Origin: a virus
DNA: 21,190 nt
Direction: 5' to 3' (one strand)
Virus record (IMG/VR): IMGVR_UViG_3300044591_001482
Coordinates: 1-21,190 of that record
Positions within the stretch are counted from its first letter, which is position 1; each line of letters begins with the position of its first letter. Shown here one piece after another: positions 4,293 to 12,401 of this stretch. Position numbers and translations under genes: made by a program. The notes beneath the pieces were generated by a model that was not told the origin of the DNA, did not search any database, and was given only the letters and a program-made list of their open reading frames with translations.

Positions 4293-4547
4293 TCAAGCCT
4301 CGGACCGCTTCGAGGCGAAGTGCTTTCGTCGCACTTCCCGCTTGCGGGCTCGAATCTCTTCGGGCGTGGGATCTGGCACTTCATCTGCACGAACCGGATC
4401 GCGGTCGGGCAATCCGAAAAACTTCCGAGCGGCGTAAATCAACTCGCGAGAGACGTTGAAATGCCGCGCGATGTCTTTCGCCAGCATCCGCGACTCCCAG
4501 AGCCTTTTCAGTTCGCCCTCGGTGATGTGGTAGTAGCGTCGATCCAT
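4293..4547 (-). CDS. small helix-turn-helix protein
   Basis: The protein has 84 residues. Residues about 9-45 form a predicted HTH: ELKRLWESRMLAKDIARHF, then NVSRELIYAARKFFGLPDR. This resembles the DNA-binding units of resolvase-type and small phage regulators. The C-terminal half is charged (EEIRARKREVRRKHF) and likely helical. The ATG at 4547 shares one base with the stop of the sliding clamp gene (TGATG), so it is translated after the clamp. A 60-base gap follows before the secreted protein gene. It could be a regulator or a nucleoid-type protein; its target is unknown. Confidence 0.75.
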   Translation of the reverse strand: MDRRYYHITEGELKRLWESRMLAKDIARHFNVSRELIYAARKFFGLPDRDPVRADEVPDPTPEEIRARKREVRRKHFASKRSEA

Positions 4548-5695
4548 CAGGCGTCCTTGGCGAGCGGCATGATGACCGTCCGAATGCCTTCACCGGCTCG
4601 CAGGATGACCGCAGAGTCGCCATCCTTCGCCTCGATCGTGATCGTCTCGGCCGGGTCGATGCTTCCGCAGCGAAGCCACGACAAGACGAATCGCGGGTCG
4701 AGCTTCACCGTGCAGGCGTGGCCGACTTCGACCAGGTCGCACGTCGCCGACGACTCGCCGTATTCAGACGATCGGGCCGACAGGAAAAGCCCGTCCTTCG
4801 TGAACACGAATTCCGTCCCCTTCGAGCTTTCGCTCGCGCAGATGCTCGCCATTTCGCAGGCGTGAGACAGAGCCCCAGCGACGACGAGCGACGGCGTGAC
4901 GCCGTGATCGACTTCCACGTCTCGCCAGCGTGGGAATCGCCCTTCGATGAGCCTGGAGCGGACAATCGTCCCGTCCACCGTGGCGACGAGCTCGCGGCCC
5001 GTTGTCTCCAGTTGCACCGCCTCGGCCCCCTTGGCGAGCCTGACGAGCGTGTCGACCGCAGCCCGAGGGGCAAGCGTCTGCGAATCGTCGCAGTCTTGCT
5101 CGACCTCGCACGACGCAGCGCAGAGCCGCCGGCCGTCAGTGCCGACGAACGTCAACGTCCCGTATGGCTCCTCTTTGTCCTTCGGGCGTGAGAACTCCAT
5201 CAGCACGGCCCCAAGAGCGAAGCGGCTGCTCTCGTTGTCAGTCGCACCCTTCACGGTGGAGACGAGCGAAACGAACTGGTCAGCGGGCAGGCGCGCGATC
5301 GACCTCGACGCCGCATAGTCCCCTGGGGGATATTCTTTTGCGTCCTCGACCGGGAGCCGCCATGTGCCGCTGCCGCCTTGCACGACGCAACACGAGCCGT
5401 CGACGGTCAGCGTAACCTCGTCAGAGCCGACCAGGCTGCCCACGATGGACGAGAGCCGCTGGAACGGCAGCAGAAGCGGCGGGCCATCCGCCCCAGCGAG
5501 CGGCGCGGTGATCCTCAGTTCGAGATCCGTCGCCGTGATCGTGCCGTCAGCGATCAGCACGTTGGCGAGAATCGGCTTCGGGCTTCGCGTCGGCACTGCG
5601 GCCGCAACCGCTCGCAGCCCGGCAGCGAGGTCGCTGGCTGCCAACTGTATGCCACCACTCTGGGTCTTTCGTCGGGTCTTTGTCGCTGTCGTCAT
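4547..5695 (-). CDS. dnaN: DNA polymerase III beta subunit-like sliding clamp
   Basis: The protein has 382 residues, the usual length of a bacterial beta clamp with three tandem domains. Diagnostic segments are ATDLELRI near 54-61 (domain 1), SSRFALGAVLMEF near 156-168, GTDGRRL near 185-191 (domain 2), RLIEGRFPRW near 248-257 (domain 3 entry) and a C-terminus VIMPLAKDA matching the family's MPM/MPL ending that forms the binding pocket. A beta clamp is a dimeric ring that tethers polymerases and repair enzymes to DNA. I chose the ATG at 5695 because GAAAGGA lies 8 bases upstream; a TTG at 5725 would add 10 residues. No polymerase gene is visible nearby. Clamps this complete are uncommon in phages. 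Confidence 0.93.
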   Translation of the reverse strand: MTTATKTRRKTQSGGIQLAASDLAAGLRAVAAAVPTRSPKPILANVLIADGTITATDLELRITAPLAGADGPPLLLPFQRLSSIVGSLVGSDEVTLTVDGSCCVVQGGSGTWRLPVEDAKEYPPGDYAASRSIARLPADQFVSLVSTVKGATDNESSRFALGAVLMEFSRPKDKEEPYGTLTFVGTDGRRLCAASCEVEQDCDDSQTLAPRAAVDTLVRLAKGAEAVQLETTGRELVATVDGTIVRSRLIEGRFPRWRDVEVDHGVTPSLVVAGALSHACEMASICASESSKGTEFVFTKDGLFLSARSSEYGESSATCDLVEVGHACTVKLDPRFVLSWLRCGSIDPAETITIEAKDGDSAVILRAGEGIRTVIMPLAKDA

Positions 5696-5801
5696 TGCTC
5701 GCATCCTTTCGAGAAAGTGAACCAACCAAGACCCCTGCGGCGAACGTCACCGCCTGGGCCATACCGAAAAACGAGAGGGCCGTGATGTCGTGGATCGTCA
5801 T
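5547..5801 (-). CDS. possible small membrane protein overlapping the clamp start
   Basis: This is an 84-residue open frame. Residues about 8-30 (ALSFFGMAQAVTFAAGVLVG) are a plausible transmembrane helix, followed by a charged segment rich in D, S and K. Its ATG at 5801 overlaps the stop of the upstream small gene as ATGA, the same coupling used throughout this operon, which argues that it is translated. The last half, however, lies on top of the clamp N-terminus in another frame and reads as low-complexity arginine/serine-rich sequence. The unusual 149-base overlap, or chance, are both possible. Without it, about 100 bases upstream of the clamp would be empty. Confidence 0.5.
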   Translation of the reverse strand: MTIHDITALSFFGMAQAVTFAAGVLVGSLSRKDASNDDSDKDPTKDPEWWHTVGSQRPRCRAASGCGRSADAKPEADSRQRADR

Positions 5802-5986
5802 CGGGCCGCCTCCATGCGTTCGATTGACTGTGCCAGCGTGATGCAGCGCCGCATCAGCAGCCGGATCGTGTCTGCGGCCTGCTCATGCAAGAGCCGGCTG
5901 TCGTCGTCGATGTGGTCTAGCCAGGCGTGCATCGCGCACATATCGGCCACGACCATCGGCGCGGGGAGCTCGGGAAGGTCGCTCAT
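5798..5986 (-). CDS. small hypothetical protein
   Basis: The protein has 62 residues, acidic at the N-terminus (MSDLPELPAP) and then largely helical (HAWLDHIDDDSRLLHEQAAD, RLLMRRCITLAQSIERMEA). No family is recognised. The support is positional: its ATG overlaps the upstream stop as ATGA and its own stop overlaps the next ATG the same way. No signal peptide or membrane helix is visible. It may be an accessory or coiled-coil partner of a neighbouring DNA-binding protein, but that is not shown. Confidence 0.65.
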   Translation of the reverse strand: MSDLPELPAPMVVADMCAMHAWLDHIDDDSRLLHEQAADTIRLLMRRCITLAQSIERMEAAR

Positions 5987-6228
5987 CGCTCACCCCCAAT
6001 CGGGCGAATGGTGCGAGCCTGACGCTCGGTGCGGACGATCCAACCGCGACGCTCTAGCGTCTTCAGGTGACACTCCACGCCGTTAGGCGAGGCGATGTCG
6101 AGCAGCCCGCAAAGCTCGCGGACGGTCGGGGCGTACCCGTGGGAGTCGATGTAGTCGACGATCGCGTCGTACACACGGCGCGCGGCGTCGGTAATCGGCT
6201 CGGGGGCGGTGGTGGCTTTGGTGGTCAT
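5983..6228 (-). CDS. LexA-type winged-helix DNA-binding domain, stand-alone
   Basis: The protein has 81 residues and residues about 16-78 closely follow the N-terminal domain of LexA: VYDAIVDYIDSHGYAPTVRE, then LLDIASPNGVECHLKTLERR, then GWI. LexA repressors continue with a self-cleaving S24 peptidase domain of about 120 residues. Here the protein stops right after the winged helix, so it has neither the autoproteolysis nor the dimerisation domain. It could bind LexA-type operators without being inactivated by RecA, or control phage promoters. The ATG at 6228 overlaps the upstream gene's stop (ATGA). The general DNA-binding call is firm; the link to SOS control is inference. Confidence 0.82.
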   Translation of the reverse strand: MTTKATTAPEPITDAARRVYDAIVDYIDSHGYAPTVRELCGLLDIASPNGVECHLKTLERRGWIVRTERQARTIRPIGGER

Positions 6229-7909: not shown

Positions 7910-8737
7910 TTAGACCAGTGCCGGCGTCTTCGGCGTCCGCTGCCGAAGTTGTGACCAGTCGCAATAAGCCTGCTCAAAGAGCGCGGGCGATCGGTGGCCC
8001 AGGTGGAGCCGCCCCGCGCCCGGCTTTTCCATCTCGCAATGGGTCGCCCCGCTGCGACGCAGCCACTTCGAGCTCCCGCCCATGCCGACGCTGTCGAGCA
8101 GGATCCGCATGTGCCGCATTGCCATCCGTCGTTTGCAGACCCAGCCGAGGATCCGGCCGTCTGGCGACACGGCGAGCATTTCGTCGATGGCGGTCAGGCA
8201 GGCTGGCGTCAGCGGTCGGACCAACGGATCGCCGGTCTTGCTCTGCGTCCAAGACAGCGTGTCGCCGTCCAGGTGCTCGCGGGTGAACGACATCACGTCG
8301 CCGAATCGAGCCCCGCACTCGTAGGCGAGCAGCACCCAGCACCGGAGGAACTTGCCGAGGTCGGCACCGGATCGGAGCCGCTTGCCGTCGTGGGCTTTCG
8401 TCGCTGCGATCAGCCCGCGAAGTTGTTCGACCGTCCACGCCTTCGTCGGGCTCTTGCGGGCCTTGATCTTCATCACGCCGCGCGGGGCTTCGTCGATCAT
8501 CCCGGTCTCGAACGCATAGCGGTAGAGCGTGAGCAGGATCGTCCGCTCTGCCCTGACGGTGGTGCTGGCCTTCTCGGCAGAGATCGTCCGCAGGTATTCG
8601 TTGACCCGCTTGACGCTGACCTCGCAGCAACGCATGGAGATCCGCTCGACGTTCTCGGCGTAATGCTTGGAGACGATCCGCTCGGCGAGGTACGCCTTAG
8701 CGATGCGTCCGAATGTCATGATGGCTGGCTTTTTCAT
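7910..8737 (-). CDS. tyrosine recombinase (second), box II H replaced by K
   Basis: The protein has 275 residues. A SAM-like core-binding N-terminus (about 5-90) precedes the catalytic domain (about 98-270). Catalytic residues visible are R144 in GARFGDV, K167 in SKTGD, K224-x-x-R227 in SSKWLRRSGATH, H248 in LGHRS and the nucleophile Y258 in QAYCD. In the usual HxxR box the histidine is lysine here, a substitution known in some active members. I chose the ATG at 8737 because AAGGA lies nine bases upstream. The gene is in the recombination operon, next to recT, and is not beside an obvious attachment site. It may be a resolvase or a second integrase rather than the main integrase. Confidence 0.88.
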   Translation of the reverse strand: MKKPAIMTFGRIAKAYLAERIVSKHYAENVERISMRCCEVSVKRVNEYLRTISAEKASTTVRAERTILLTLYRYAFETGMIDEAPRGVMKIKARKSPTKAWTVEQLRGLIAATKAHDGKRLRSGADLGKFLRCWVLLAYECGARFGDVMSFTREHLDGDTLSWTQSKTGDPLVRPLTPACLTAIDEMLAVSPDGRILGWVCKRRMAMRHMRILLDSVGMGGSSKWLRRSGATHCEMEKPGAGRLHLGHRSPALFEQAYCDWSQLRQRTPKTPALV

Positions 8738-8787
8738 TGATCTACGTCCTTGTGTATTGGCCCCGTTTGGTGGGGCAGACCGTCGAC

Positions 8788-9189
8788 TCACCCGCCTGGA
8801 GATGAAGGGTTTCGGCTGGCGTCGACTGCGGTGGTTTCCGACTCCCGCTGCGGGTCGCTGCCGTCTTCCGGCTCTGAGGCTGCGACTGCCTCGACTTTGC
8901 TTGCCCGTCTAACGGTGGCTCTCGCACTGCCCCAGACGTTGACGATCACGGCGTCGGTCAGTTGCCCGCGCTCGGCGAGCACCTGGTCGAGATGGACGAT
9001 CGCCTTGTAGAGCTCCCATCCAGCAGCCCTCGCCTGCTCGGGGGTGAGAGTCGCCATCGGCATCGGCTGGAATCCGCCGTTGATGACCCGCGAGGGCATC
9101 CGGATCGGCGGACGGTCGCCCATGCGAATGTCCGACTCTTCTCGGCGGGCCTCTTCCTCGATGTAGGCGAAGGTGCTGATGTAGCTCAT
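8788..9189 (-). CDS. hypothetical protein next to recT
   Basis: The protein has 133 residues. The middle region (LTPEQARAAGWELYKAIVHL, DQVLAERGQLTDAVIVNVWG) is helical, and the last 35 residues are polar and probably disordered. No family is recognised and no signal or membrane segment is seen. Its ATG at 9189 overlaps the recT stop as ATGA, so it is translated with RecT; a partner or accessory protein of the annealing system is a reasonable guess only. Fifty bases separate it from the recombinase gene that follows. Confidence 0.65.
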   Translation of the reverse strand: MSYISTFAYIEEEARREESDIRMGDRPPIRMPSRVINGGFQPMPMATLTPEQARAAGWELYKAIVHLDQVLAERGQLTDAVIVNVWGSARATVRRASKVEAVAASEPEDGSDPQRESETTAVDASRNPSSPGG

Positions 9190-10034
9190 CGGGCGTTGGC
9201 CTCCGCTTCGACCTCTTGCCCGTCAAAGTGCTCGGTGCCGCTGTCTTGGGCGTTGAGCAGGATGTCGAGCTTCCCGTGGATCAACTGGCAGAGGCTCGCG
9301 TGCTCGTCCTTGGTGAACGTGCCATCGCCCAGCCGCTCGTCTGCCGTGCTGCGGAGCTTCTCCAGACGCTCGACCGTGGTCGCCTTGCTGACGAGGATGC
9401 GAGCCTTGCCCAGCGGCGTTTCCGTCGCGAGCGTGTCGTTGAACTTGGGGCGGACGACGACGGGCTCGGGCTGCGTCACCTTGACCGCTGGGGCCGGCTC
9501 GGGCGTGGCGTCCGAAATCTCGTCTGGGTCGTAGATGCCGACCGAGCCTTCCCAGCCGAGGCTCTTGAGCCCCGCCGTGATCGCCCGACTGCGAAGCATT
9601 GCCTTCGGGTGCTTGGCGTAGTTGTCATTCGACGCCAGGCCAGCCCGCTTCGCGTCCTCCATCGTGAACGTCTCGACGTGCTCGTCGCCGTTGGGGTGCC
9701 GCAGCCAGACGACCGCCTTGCCTTCAGACAGTTCCTTGAACTGAGCCCGTCCGCCGCACGACTTAAACCGCGCCAACTGCGAATCGGCCCGCTCCGTGAC
9801 AGTGCCTTTGATGACCTGGAGTTTTCGGCAGGCAGCCATCGTCCCCATGCCGAGCTCGCGGCCCATCAAGACAATCGCAGCGAACGAAACGCCGTCTTTG
9901 ATGTGGCTCGGCAAAAAGCCGGTGCGCCGCAGGGCATCACCCATGCTGACGAGAGAGTCGAACGATGGTTCCTCGTGCGAGGCGAGAGCCAACCCTCTCG
10001 CTGGTGCCGTGTTTGTGCTGATTTCCGTCGACAT
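9186..10034 (-). CDS. recT: RecT-family single-strand annealing recombinase
   Basis: The protein has 282 residues. Residues 35-175 carry the RecT pattern: a helix GVSFAAIVLMGRELGMGTM, LQVIKGTVTERADSQLARF, then NYAKHPKAMLRSRAITAGL near 138-156 and GIYDPDE near 166-172, which is the end of the core in this family. The C-terminal 100 residues are a charged, less conserved tail. RecT anneals complementary single strands and drives recombination-dependent phage replication, normally with an exonuclease partner. No RecE/Exo gene is adjacent; the PD-(D/E)XK nuclease at 7082..7570 is the nearest candidate. The ATG at 10034 has AAAGGA six bases upstream. Confidence 0.88.
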   Translation of the reverse strand: MSTEISTNTAPARGLALASHEEPSFDSLVSMGDALRRTGFLPSHIKDGVSFAAIVLMGRELGMGTMAACRKLQVIKGTVTERADSQLARFKSCGGRAQFKELSEGKAVVWLRHPNGDEHVETFTMEDAKRAGLASNDNYAKHPKAMLRSRAITAGLKSLGWEGSVGIYDPDEISDATPEPAPAVKVTQPEPVVVRPKFNDTLATETPLGKARILVSKATTVERLEKLRSTADERLGDGTFTKDEHASLCQLIHGKLDILLNAQDSGTEHFDGQEVEAEANAR

Positions 10035-10125: not shown

Positions 10126-10344
10126 CTAGTGCGTTACGTCCTTGGCAGAGACCGCCAGCCAGCCGCCGTCGATTTCGATTGAGAGCCGGTCGCCGTCGAT
10201 GTCCCAGATGCGACCGCTCCACTGCTTGCCGCCCGAGGTGCCGCTGACGAAATCGCCGATGGCGAAATGCGTCTGGCGAGGGGCGGGCGTCTGGTCGGAG
10301 AGATAGGTCGCGGCGGCGAGATACTCGTTGTCGTGGGCGTTCAT
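10126..10344 (-). CDS. small hypothetical protein (early, promoter-proximal)
   Basis: The protein has 72 residues: MNAHDNEYLAAATYLSDQTP, then a beta-rich segment (FAIGDFVSGTS, QWSGRIWDID, RLSIEIDGGWLAVSAKDV). The strand pattern, with FVSG and SGRIWDI, resembles a small SH3/KOW-like barrel. No family is assigned. The ATG at 10344 has AGGAG ten bases upstream and follows a promoter candidate at 10373-10400. Longer in-frame starts up to 10713 would run through the promoter region and the preceding gene, so I reject them. Confidence 0.75.
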   Translation of the reverse strand: MNAHDNEYLAAATYLSDQTPAPRQTHFAIGDFVSGTSGGKQWSGRIWDIDGDRLSIEIDGGWLAVSAKDVTH

Positions 10345-10400: not shown

Positions 10401-10456
10401 GCGTCCAGATATCAAGTTGTTGGGGAGTGAAAAGTTTGTTCAGCAGAATGGGTGCC

Positions 10457-10469
10457 GGTAGCGTTACTT
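10457..10469 (-). promoter_or_regulatory. operator-like core copy without promoter
   Basis: AAGTAACGCTACC (minus strand) is repeated here exactly 30 bp downstream of the same word in copy 3. It has no matching -35 or -10, so it looks like an extra protein-binding site in the leader of the recT-side transcript. Confidence 0.5.
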
Positions 10470-10477
10470 GCGTGCGG

Positions 10478-10506
10478 CATGGTAGCGGTAGCGTTACTTC
10501 TGTCAA
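10478..10506 (-). promoter_or_regulatory. 29-bp promoter/operator element, copy 3
   Basis: On the minus strand the element opens with TTGACA (perfect -35) and has TACCAT 16 bases later as a -10. In between lies AAGTAACGCTACC. It matches copy 1 (11337-11365) at 23 of 29 bases and copy 2 (11003-11031) at 22 of 29, counted by hand. It overlaps the stop codon of the 47-residue gene. The core word recurs exactly 30 bp away at 10457-10469, three helical turns, on the same face of DNA. Confidence 0.65.
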
Positions 10507-10646
10507 CCAAGAATCCCGAGAAAGGTCAGCACGATCGAGATCGTGTCGTGAACCATCCGCGCGAGCGGCGAATCGGTGCCGAGCTCTTGGCCGAGGCGGA
10601 TGAGCACGAGCGAGCGGATCGCGGCGTCCCAGTCGATGCGTTTCAT
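10503..10646 (-). CDS. 47-residue hypothetical protein
   Basis: The protein is MKRIDWDAAIRSLVLIRLGQ, then ELGTDSPLARMVHDTISIVL, then TFLGILG. The end is hydrophobic, enough for a short membrane-associating helix. The ATG at 10646 has AAGGA seven bases upstream, a good ribosome site, which is the main reason to call it. Longer in-frame starts up to 10997 would overlap the upstream gene in another frame and are rejected. No family is recognised; it belongs to the cluster of short early genes. Confidence 0.6.
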   Translation of the reverse strand: MKRIDWDAAIRSLVLIRLGQELGTDSPLARMVHDTISIVLTFLGILG

Positions 10647-10723
10647 GTTTGCTTCCTTGCGAGTTTGAAAGTGCCACCCATTTTGCGGCTGTCGGCGGGC
10701 TGGGTGGCCCCACCTTGATCGGT

Positions 10724-10951
10724 TTACCAACCGGGGTTGAAGGGAGCGCCGCCGATTCCGATCAGCCGCATACCCCAGTTCGGCAGCGTGAAGGCTTGCA
10801 TGTGGTCGAGCACCTCGGCAAAGCAACCAGAGAAAAACTTCTTGTCGCCTTCGTGGTCGGTCACGATCCAACCGCCATTCCGCGAATCGTGCTCGGCCTT
10901 CCAGACTTGGGTGATGCCTTCGGCGTCGTAGGCCAGCTTGATCGTCTTCAT
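10724..10951 (-). CDS. small hypothetical protein
   Basis: The protein has 75 residues: MKTIKLAYDAEGITQVWKAE, HDSRNGGWIVTDHEGDKKFF, then an aromatic end with LPNWGMRLIGIGG. It looks like a small globular alpha/beta domain. No family is recognised. The ATG at 10951 has GGGAG eight bases upstream and lies about 45 bases after the predicted start site of promoter copy 2. The in-frame start at 11029 would place the promoter inside the gene and is less likely. Confidence 0.72.
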   Translation of the reverse strand: MKTIKLAYDAEGITQVWKAEHDSRNGGWIVTDHEGDKKFFSGCFAEVLDHMQAFTLPNWGMRLIGIGGAPFNPGW

Positions 10952-11002
10952 CGTTTCGTCTCCCGGCTTGCGTCCTGCGAGTCTCACTTGCTCGCATGGC
11001 CC

Positions 11003-11031
11003 CATTGTAGCGTTATCGTTACTACGCACAA
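11003..11031 (-). promoter_or_regulatory. 29-bp promoter/operator element, copy 2
   Basis: On the minus strand it has TTGTGC (weak -35), then after 16 bases TACAAT (five of six -10 bases). The spacer holds two tandem half-sites, AGTAACG and ATAACG, six bases apart, flanked by GTAG and CTAC. It matches copy 3 at 22 of 29 and copy 1 at 20 of 29. It would drive the 75-residue gene. Confidence 0.65.
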
Positions 11032-11075
11032 GGGGACTTGAAAAGATTTTTTTGGTGGGCGGTTTTCCTCGGGGA

Positions 11076-11324
11076 TTACGAGGGTTTCCGCTTGCGGCTG
11101 GGCTTTTTGACCCGCTCGGCTTTCCGGCGGTTCGACCGGGTGGTCAGGCTGCGGGCCAGTTCGAGCACGTCGGCCCTGTGGACGAGCCAGGCCCGCTCCC
11201 CAGCCTTCCAGCCCCGGAGCCTGGAATCGCCAGCCCCGAGGAGCCGGCGCAGGTAGCCCTCCGTGCAGCCGGCGTTTTCGACGGCTTCAGCGATGGTTAT
11301 CCAATCTTTGTCGGGTGATGCCAC
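11076..11324 (-). CDS. excisionase/MerR-like DNA-binding protein
   Basis: The protein has about 82 residues from the GTG at 11324. Residues about 5-55 fit the winged-helix fold of excisionase or MerR-type proteins: WITIAEAVENAGCTEGYLRR, LLGAG, then GWKAGERAWLVHRADVLELA. The tail is strongly basic (SNRRKAERVKKPSRKRKPS). It lies back to back with the integrase, the normal place for an excisionase or a switch regulator. The start is uncertain: ATG at 11339 or 11330 is possible. I prefer the GTG at 11324, which has GGAGG eight bases upstream. The 11339 ATG is the last triplet of the 29-bp promoter element, so it may not be transcribed. Confidence 0.75.
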   Translation of the reverse strand: MASPDKDWITIAEAVENAGCTEGYLRRLLGAGDSRLRGWKAGERAWLVHRADVLELARSLTTRSNRRKAERVKKPSRKRKPS

Positions 11325-11336
11325 TACCATGCCCTC

Positions 11337-11365
11337 CATCGTAACGTCAGCGTTACTTGCGTCAA
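11337..11365 (-). promoter_or_regulatory. 29-bp promoter/operator element, copy 1
   Basis: On the minus strand it has TTGACG (five of six -35 bases), then after 16 bases TACGAT as a -10. Its core contains a perfect inverted repeat GTAACG-CTGA-CGTTAC at 11341-11356. It matches copy 3 at 23 of 29 bases. It lies just before the excisionase/MerR-like gene and 69 bases from the divergent integrase promoter. Confidence 0.65.
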
Positions 11366-11486: not shown

Positions 11487-12401
11487 ATGGAAACGATGAC
11501 TTTGAAGGAACTGTTCGAGCGGTACGTCACGCTGCGGAATCTCAAGGGCAACACGGCTTCGCTTTACACGCAGTTGGGCGACAGGCTGACGAACTTCCTC
11601 GGCCACGAGCCGACGCTTGCTGACCTCGACGACCTCGTGATCGCGAGATACCTGCGATGGCGGGCCACAACGCCTGGCTACAAGGGGCGTGTGCCATCGG
11701 CCGCGAGTGTCCAGAAGGACAAGGTGATGCTACAGGCGGCGTGGAACCTCGCCGCCCGCAAAAGATGGGCGGCCGATTTCCCAGAGCTCCCGAAGATCCG
11801 CGTACCAGCGAGGCTGCCCACGGGGCGGGCCTACACGTCGGAGGATGTGGCGAAACTCATCGTGCGGGCGAAGCGTCGGCAAGGATCGGTCGGCGGAAAG
11901 CGTGCCGCCTGGTGGTGGCCGACGCTGATATACACCGCGTACTGCACGGGCGAGCGGTTCACCGCCCTGACATCGCTCCGCTGGGGGCAGGTCGATCTGG
12001 AGCGGCGGCGCGTCGTCTTCCTTGGGGAGACTCGCAAAGGCAGCACGCGCGACATCGAGCGTGAGATCACGGAAGACCTTGCCGAGATGCTGCTGCGTGA
12101 GAAAGGCCAGCCAGACGCTCTGGTGTGGGCCTGGGACCGCAAGAGCCGCAGCCAATGGGCGAGCCTACGTCTGCTCTGCCGCCTCGCAGGCGTGAAATAC
12201 AGAGGCTTCCACGGCTTCCGGCGGACGGCGGCGTCTTATGCCGCGCTGGCCGGCGGACGGGCAGCCGCAACGCACCTGCTCGATCACGCAGACCCGAACC
12301 TCCAGAAGATATATGTCGATCCTCAAATCTGCCCCGAGGAGGAGATCAGCCTGAGCGCGTTGCCGAAGCTAGACCTTGACCAGAATCGTCAAGGCGAATG
12401 A
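11487..12401 (+). CDS. int: phage tyrosine integrase
   Basis: The protein has 304 residues and is the only plus-strand gene in the window. The N-terminal SAM-like core-binding domain spans about 5-95. The catalytic domain (about 115-280) has R157 in CTGERFTAL, K184 in ETRKGSTRD, H242-x-x-R245 in FHGFRRTAA, H267 in LLDHADP and the nucleophile Y276 in KIYVDP, a complete catalytic set. It should catalyse site-specific integration of the phage at an attachment site. I chose the ATG at 11487, with GGGAG upstream and a good promoter before it, over a GTG/ATG start about 87 bases upstream that would cross that promoter. It ends in a hairpin shared with a convergent gene. Confidence 0.92.
   Translation: METMTLKELFERYVTLRNLKGNTASLYTQLGDRLTNFLGHEPTLADLDDLVIARYLRWRATTPGYKGRVPSAASVQKDKVMLQAAWNLAARKRWAADFPELPKIRVPARLPTGRAYTSEDVAKLIVRAKRRQGSVGGKRAAWWWPTLIYTAYCTGERFTALTSLRWGQVDLERRRVVFLGETRKGSTRDIEREITEDLAEMLLREKGQPDALVWAWDRKSRSQWASLRLLCRLAGVKYRGFHGFRRTAASYAALAGGRAAATHLLDHADPNLQKIYVDPQICPEEEISLSALPKLDLDQNRQGE

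Follow-up and report, generated by a model that had tools for sequence, protein, structure and literature searches.

A predicted regulator-operator module in the early region of an uncultured phage, and its counterparts in related phages

On the minus strand of a 21,190-bp contig from an uncultured virus, which was analysed as a whole and is called the window below, three small transcription units lie between an integrase gene and a gene for a RecT-like protein, and a near-identical 29-bp element recurs there three times (11337-11365, 11003-11031 and 10478-10506). Which protein reads these repeats, and what follows for the phage when they are read? The copies share 19 of 29 positions (TTG.....AGTAACG.T..CG.TAC.ATG), and each has a TTG-type -35 element, a 16-nt spacer containing AGTAACG and a TACnAT -10 element, while a fourth AGTAACG core (10462-10468) is found exactly 30 bp from the third (10492-10498). 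All this had been described in a first-pass annotation of the DNA as a set of 29-bp promoter/operators. The repeats stand as described, but their internal structure had been missed: the common element is a 16-bp imperfect inverted repeat, GTAACG-N4-CGTTAC, placed inside the spacer between -35 and -10. With at most one mismatch allowed, three copies of this repeat are observed when 0.01 are expected (200 first-order Markov simulations, maximum 1). The features of the locus are collected in Table 1.

Table 1. Predicted genes, promoters and operators of the early-control locus (window coordinates).
Feature	Positions	Strand	Description
Tyrosine integrase	11487..12401	+	PF00589 E 7.4e-9, phrog_1 E 1.2e-27; divergent from gene 1
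Promoter P1	11338..11365	-	-35 TTGACG 11365-11360, -10 TACGAT 11343-11338, spacer 16
Operator O1	11341..11356	-	perfect inverted repeat GTAACGCTGACGTTAC, 0 mismatches
Gene 1	11076..11330	-	84-aa HTH_17 / Xis-BldC-like winged-helix regulator; predicted leaderless start, ATG 11330-11328
Promoter P2	11004..11031	-	-35 TTGTGC 11031-11026, -10 TACAAT 11009-11004; layout kept in relatives
Operator O2	11007..11022	-	GTAACGATAACGCTAC, 1 mismatch
Gene 2a	10724..10951	-	75 aa, no family match; differs among relatives
Gene 2b	10503..10646	-	47 aa (MKRIDWDAAIRSLVLIRLGQELG...); in most variants of the module flanked by O2 and O3
Promoter P3	10479..10506	-	-35 TTGACA, -10 TACCAT, spacer 16
Operator O3	10482..10497	-	GTAACGCTACCGCTAC, 1 mismatch
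Operator O4	10452..10467	-	GTAACGCTACCGGCAC, 2 mismatches; 30 bp from O3
Promoter P4	10373..10400	-	operator-free promoter TTGACG-16-TACATT 5' of gene 3; also in relatives
Gene 3	10126..10344	-	72 aa, function not assigned
RecT-like ssDNA annealing protein	9186..10034	-	phrog_561 E 8.5e-16; downstream in early operon

The promoter-like hexamers that flank O1-O3 suggest that these operators overlap early promoters, while O4 is without hexamers and is a putative operator only. A consensus promoter scanner independently calls the sites at 11365-11338 and 10506-10479, with three promoter-like sites in the region against a mean of 0.3 in shuffled sequences; the middle promoter, P2, which has a weak -35, is absent from its output. 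A search of Rfam gave no match. The word AGTAACG occurs four times in the 21,190 bp, always on the minus strand and always at this locus. The motif had been predicted to be enriched elsewhere in the phage, but the rest of the contig holds no further copies, from which it follows that the regulon is small and local, with three or four sites in one operon.

The start of gene 1 had been placed at 11324. The ATG at 11330, which is also the predicted +1 of P1, is the most likely start, and since the -10 element of the O1 promoter ends 6-7 nt before this start codon, the regulator mRNA is predicted to be leaderless. A leaderless gene 1 mRNA, which we regard as probable from the promoter layout, has a precedent in the cI mRNA that phage lambda transcribes from PRM. 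The gene 1 protein matches Pfam HTH_17 with E 0.0011 and 19.6 bits, which is below the curated cut-off of 27, while its homologue in locus L077 reaches 28 bits and is above it; the match to phrog_66 (excisionase/regulator) has E 0.0014. A sequence search of the PDB returned nothing credible. The AF2 model of the gene 1 protein (pLDDT 73) is a winged helix-turn-helix with the recognition helix at residues 24-33, and has the helix-turn-helix and beta wing of the Xis/BldC-type fold. The top Foldseek match of the model is Xis of mycobacteriophage Pukovnik (4j2n, prob 1.0, TMt 0.73), and BldC is matched with TMt 0.71-0.74; the E-values of these matches are just 0.04-1 because the domain is small. 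Further down in the operon the stop codon of the tiny gene 2b overlaps the -35 element of P3; this gene is kept through the module swaps described below and has 226 relatives in the viral collection.

A search with the gene 1 protein gave 63 viral loci. The motif had been expected to be conserved in relatives of the phage, and it is found at the same positions in about 60 related viral loci. The recurrent order is O1, regulator gene, O2, small gene or genes, O3 (O4). P1 is kept 5' of the homologous gene, and the promoter in front of the regulator gene is recognisable in nearly all of the 63 loci. Among the 82 parsed modules, 75 have a 16-nt spacer in the O1 promoter, and in 78 the start codon follows the end of the -10 element of this promoter by 6-7 nt. 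Among 64 partly redundant sequences there are 58 exact cores TAACG-N4-CGTTA and 111 with one mismatch; a single set simulated with a Markov model gave 0 and 7, respectively. Several classes have a degenerate right half-site. In many classes O3 is followed by a second site in tandem, for the most part at a distance of 21-22 or 28-31 bp. Recognisable sites were not found at two loci with a regulator homologue, L368 and L370. A CGGACCAAGGTTGTCCG palindrome is conserved just 5' of the -35 element of the O1 promoter, on the integrase side, in one sub-clade (L020, L027, L349); it is possibly an att or integrase-promoter element.

The outermost operator bases have changed from G..C to C..G in L032 and in one large clade. 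The change is seen in both arms at several sites, and within a single phage it affects O1, O2 and O3 together. Such a coordinated change at dispersed sites is expected if all of them share one reader. When the whole collection is scanned for the operator pattern, with no use made of the protein, clustered sites appear only together with a regulator gene or in cut contig pieces of regulator-bearing contigs; the other matches are isolated and have no regulator nearby. A base-neutral pattern scan for A- or T-type operators gave just isolated matches without a regulator, and the T-type operator is seen only in the diverged L511 group.

The association between regulator and sites can also be followed in phages that are otherwise closely similar to the one in the window. 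Three loci found via RecT or gene 3 (L066, L077 and L095) have long flanking blocks that are 82-94% identical to the window, with a different small HTH gene in the slot of gene 1 and, in the same places, a different and matched set of O1-O4: CTACCGnTAGAC in L077 and L095, and TGCA-based elements in L066. Where the regulator gene has been replaced the sites disappear. About ten operator classes are found among the relatives. A scan of the viral collection with gene 2b gave 226 loci, and from 80 of these further classes with the same layout were drawn: GTTGCG, GTTCCG, CTACCG, CTGACG/GTGACG, CTAGCG, CTTCCG, TTACCG and a second CTAACG type. Of 28 distinct modules among those listed, 25 have the O2 hexamer again in the O3 region of their own phage; comparisons with O3 of the other classes gave it in 30 of 630 cases. 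In related genomes the regulator and its operators thus diverge or are swapped together, as in heteroimmune systems.

Two features of these replacements may be added here. The regulator of L066 (L066:8980-9330) and that of L547 have no detectable sequence similarity to the others and no Pfam match, and occupy the same O1-O4 slots with TGCA-based operators; a single-sequence model of the former has the same element order, which at pLDDT 61 is weak evidence. In the mosaics L349:1-5418 and L103 the O1 promoter and the 5' end of the regulator gene are of one class, and the recognition helix and the later operators are of another, as if recombination had occurred inside the regulator gene or the assemblies were chimeric.

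If the gene 1 protein reads the sites, residues of the protein should change with bases of the operator. To describe this, residues are numbered from the ATG at 11330 and the half-site is written N1 T N3 N4 C G; for each of 87 distinct regulators the half-site was taken from O2 (a few were assigned by hand from O2 or O3). In the close family, residue 29 is the sole column with disjoint residues in the two operator types: it is always Arg with the G-type, and Leu, Met or Gln with the C-type. The protein of L032 has Gln29 and in every bootstrap tree is separated from the remaining C-type proteins, which means that the type has changed at least twice. When all columns were scanned blindly in the 87 diverse members, residue 29 again had the highest mutual information with N1 (1.00 bit), closely followed by residue 26 (0.93 bit): Arg29 or Lys29 goes with G, and Leu, Met, Gln, His, Ile or Ala29 with C. 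Exceptions are Thr29, which is found with G in the L522 group and with C in L500, and the Leu29 of the L511 group, which is found with T at O2-O3 and with C at O1. In the same scan the highest mutual information with N3 is that of residue 25, and here the pairing is without conflicts: Gly25 with A, Ala25 with G, and Gln25, Arg25 or Ser25 with T. For N4 no single-residue rule emerged from the 87-member scan. The correlation between residues and operators partly follows phylogeny. Independent contrasts are concordant in three cases, opposite in none and without difference in one for N1 and residue 29 (p 0.25), and concordant in three of three for N3 and residue 25 (p 0.25), so that with so few independent switches (three informative pairs each) the tree-based statistics are weak by themselves.

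The structure of BldC bound to DNA was looked at only after the blind scan. There the base contacts in the major groove are made by Lys26 and Arg30 of the recognition helix, Arg30 with bidentate bonds to guanine (PMC5859096). The BldC sequence used was confirmed to be that of PDB 6ama, and in the register given by a profile alignment of weak score, with helix limits of 24-33 in the model and 25-34 in BldC, Lys26 is the counterpart of residue 25 and Arg30 that of residue 29. Taken with the covariation, this suggests a two-residue recognition code, in which residue 29 would specify the first base of the half-site and residue 25 the third. The idea of a phage-specific regulon with one DNA-binding reader is supported by presence and absence, by coordinated module swapping and by residue-base covariation, and on the same three counts the gene at 11076, which had been named as a candidate, is the best-supported one. 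We conclude that the gene 1 protein very probably reads O1-O4.

Consider now how such a system would work. P1 would give a leaderless mRNA from which the regulator is made at once, and the regulator, by binding the inverted repeat in the spacer of P1, would repress its own synthesis. Its recognition helix would read the half-site with Arg29 specifying G as first base and Gly25 specifying A as third. By binding also in the spacers of P2 and P3, and at the O3/O4 pair, it would block RNA polymerase and thereby shut off the early genes 2a and 2b and the P3-driven part of the operon with gene 3 and recT. The spacing of O3 and O4, and of tandem sites generally, at about two or three helix turns suggests co-operative or side-by-side binding. 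P4, which has no operator, would sustain a basal expression of gene 3 and recT, so that these genes would escape full repression. The cycle would thus be an early burst of transcription, immediate synthesis of the regulator, and then repression of P1-P3; a phage of the same class that entered a lysogen or a superinfected cell would be silenced by this same regulator. Repression by steric hindrance is favoured over activation of the MerR type, because the operator fills the 16-nt spacer and the protein has no effector domain, and that the gene 1 protein represses is predicted with considerable confidence.

The simplest use of such a protein in a phage with an integrase would be that of an immunity or early-lytic repressor with Cro/CI-like logic and group-specific superinfection exclusion, and a Cro/immunity-type repressor of the early operon is its most likely identity. 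A separate maintenance promoter for gene 1 was not found in the window, and since gene 1 would be a self-repressing early gene, immunity in the lysogen is not directly indicated; the balance tips only a little in favour of a role in immunity. The diversity of classes between conserved flanks is most easily understood as selection for heteroimmunity. As a whole, the best explanation is probably that O1-O4 are operators of the small winged-helix protein of 11076-11330, acting as an early repressor and possibly in immunity.

Four other explanations have to be weighed against this early repressor. The most serious, though unlikely, is that gene 1 primarily encodes an excisionase, i.e., a recombination directionality factor, which affects the early promoters in a secondary role, in the manner of phage 186 Apl or P2 Cox. 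The protein has Pukovnik Xis as its top fold match, resembles the HTH_17/phrog_66 family and is encoded next to the integrase; moreover, Apl is both excisionase and repressor (PMC7498355), and RdfS, of the HTH_17 domain family, represses its own promoter (PMC11963761). Apl and other directionality factors bind, however, at att to direct repeats spaced by about one helix turn and discriminate weakly between specific and non-specific DNA (PMC7498355), so that a sequence-specific co-diversification would not be expected of them. The sites in the window are inverted repeats that lie in promoters over a stretch of about 900 bp, and thus lack this feature; no clustered copies were found near the integrase. 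A second role of gene 1 in excision is possible. One may also think of the protein as an activator of P1-P3, since its fold belongs to the MerR superfamily, several -35/-10 pairs are imperfect and the operator lies in the spacer. MerR activators do bind the promoter spacer, but their activation depends on spacers of 19-20 nt, and 75 of the 82 parsed O1 spacers have 16 nt. The 84 residues hold no effector or dimerisation domain, and a sole promoter activated by its own product could hardly start. Activation is therefore improbable.

Less probable still is another reader, either the LexA-like protein encoded at 5983-6228 of the window, which had been proposed alongside gene 1, or the LexA of the host in an SOS-controlled regulon. 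The phage protein does have a LexA DNA-binding domain (PF01726, E 2.4e-17) and relatives in 20 of 23 related records, but its copies in L066 and L095 are 96-98% identical although the operators of these phages differ, and it is almost unchanged between the G-type L029 and the C-type L049. The operator type does not follow the phage LexA-like protein, and no column of its alignment separates the types. A host factor, in turn, would not be expected to track a residue in a phage helix or to be swapped with a phage gene. Least probable of all is that the conserved words reflect host promoter consensus and common descent and have no operator function. The right half of the repeat does overlap the -10 element and the flanks are homologous, but O4 is without a promoter, the dispersed sites change together while the -35 and -10 elements stay, and the sites are lost where the regulator gene is replaced.

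The early repressor that we favour resembles several known systems without coinciding with any of them. Classically, phage immunity groups are known from cultured phages and a small number of repressor families. In phage phiC31 one repressor acts at many dispersed and conserved inverted-repeat operators at early promoters, which is the arrangement predicted here, although the phiC31 repressor is much larger and unrelated. As with CI and Cro of lambda and 434 and with the repressor and stoperators of cluster A mycobacteriophages, a heteroimmune repressor-operator system (PMC6550527, PMC9283540), there is a phage regulator with several operators at early promoters and with divergent, matched pairs in otherwise similar genomes. 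In contrast to these, the regulator of the window is a single Xis/BldC-like winged-helix domain, its sites are at three or four places in one early operon instead of a genome-wide stoperator array, and its gene heads an operon apparently under its own control, with a putative role in immunity. With Streptomyces BldC it shares the single winged-helix domain of the MerR superfamily and the two base-reading positions, but BldC binds head-to-tail direct repeats (6ama, PMC5859096), whereas the sites here are tightly defined inverted repeats. Like Apl, Cox and RdfS it is small, encoded together with an integrase and predicted to repress an early promoter or its own. The known sites of Apl, however, are direct repeats that form clusters at att or in the region between pR and pL and are bound with weak specificity, and no cluster of this kind was seen here.

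We lean towards the view that the locus represents a large, undescribed family of swappable early-control, or immunity, modules in uncultured phages, built around a leaderless single-domain Xis/BldC-like regulator with about ten specificities and a natural two-residue code. No published description of the module was found among open-licence papers. Relatives of the regulator were found neither in 84,980 genomes nor in the INPHARED phages. As to the host, gene 2b had no match in 392 genomes of one phylum and the integrase, at 1e-60, none in 301 genomes of one order, and the best matches of RecT, with about 30% identity, were to unrelated MAGs. The Xis/BldC-like family is better known for loose, filament-type binding to DNA; within it, dozens of uncultured phages would here provide a regulator and scattered operators that change in step. 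This natural series would be a data set on how the specificity of a minimal winged helix changes, with a bearing on the evolution of heteroimmunity, and the two-residue code, if true, could become a set of predictive rules.

Outside the locus three further genes on the minus strand may be mentioned. Besides the integrase in Table 1, the window has a second tyrosine-recombinase gene (7910-8740, phrog_1 E 2.4e-20). A homologue of the DNA polymerase III beta-clamp is encoded at 4547-5725 (PF02767 E 3.7e-11, phrog_947 E 1.5e-48), and at 1677-2945 a ParB-like N-terminal part is fused to an N6/N4 DNA methyltransferase (phrog_498 E 8e-69, ParB-like phrog_8071 E 5.4e-12).
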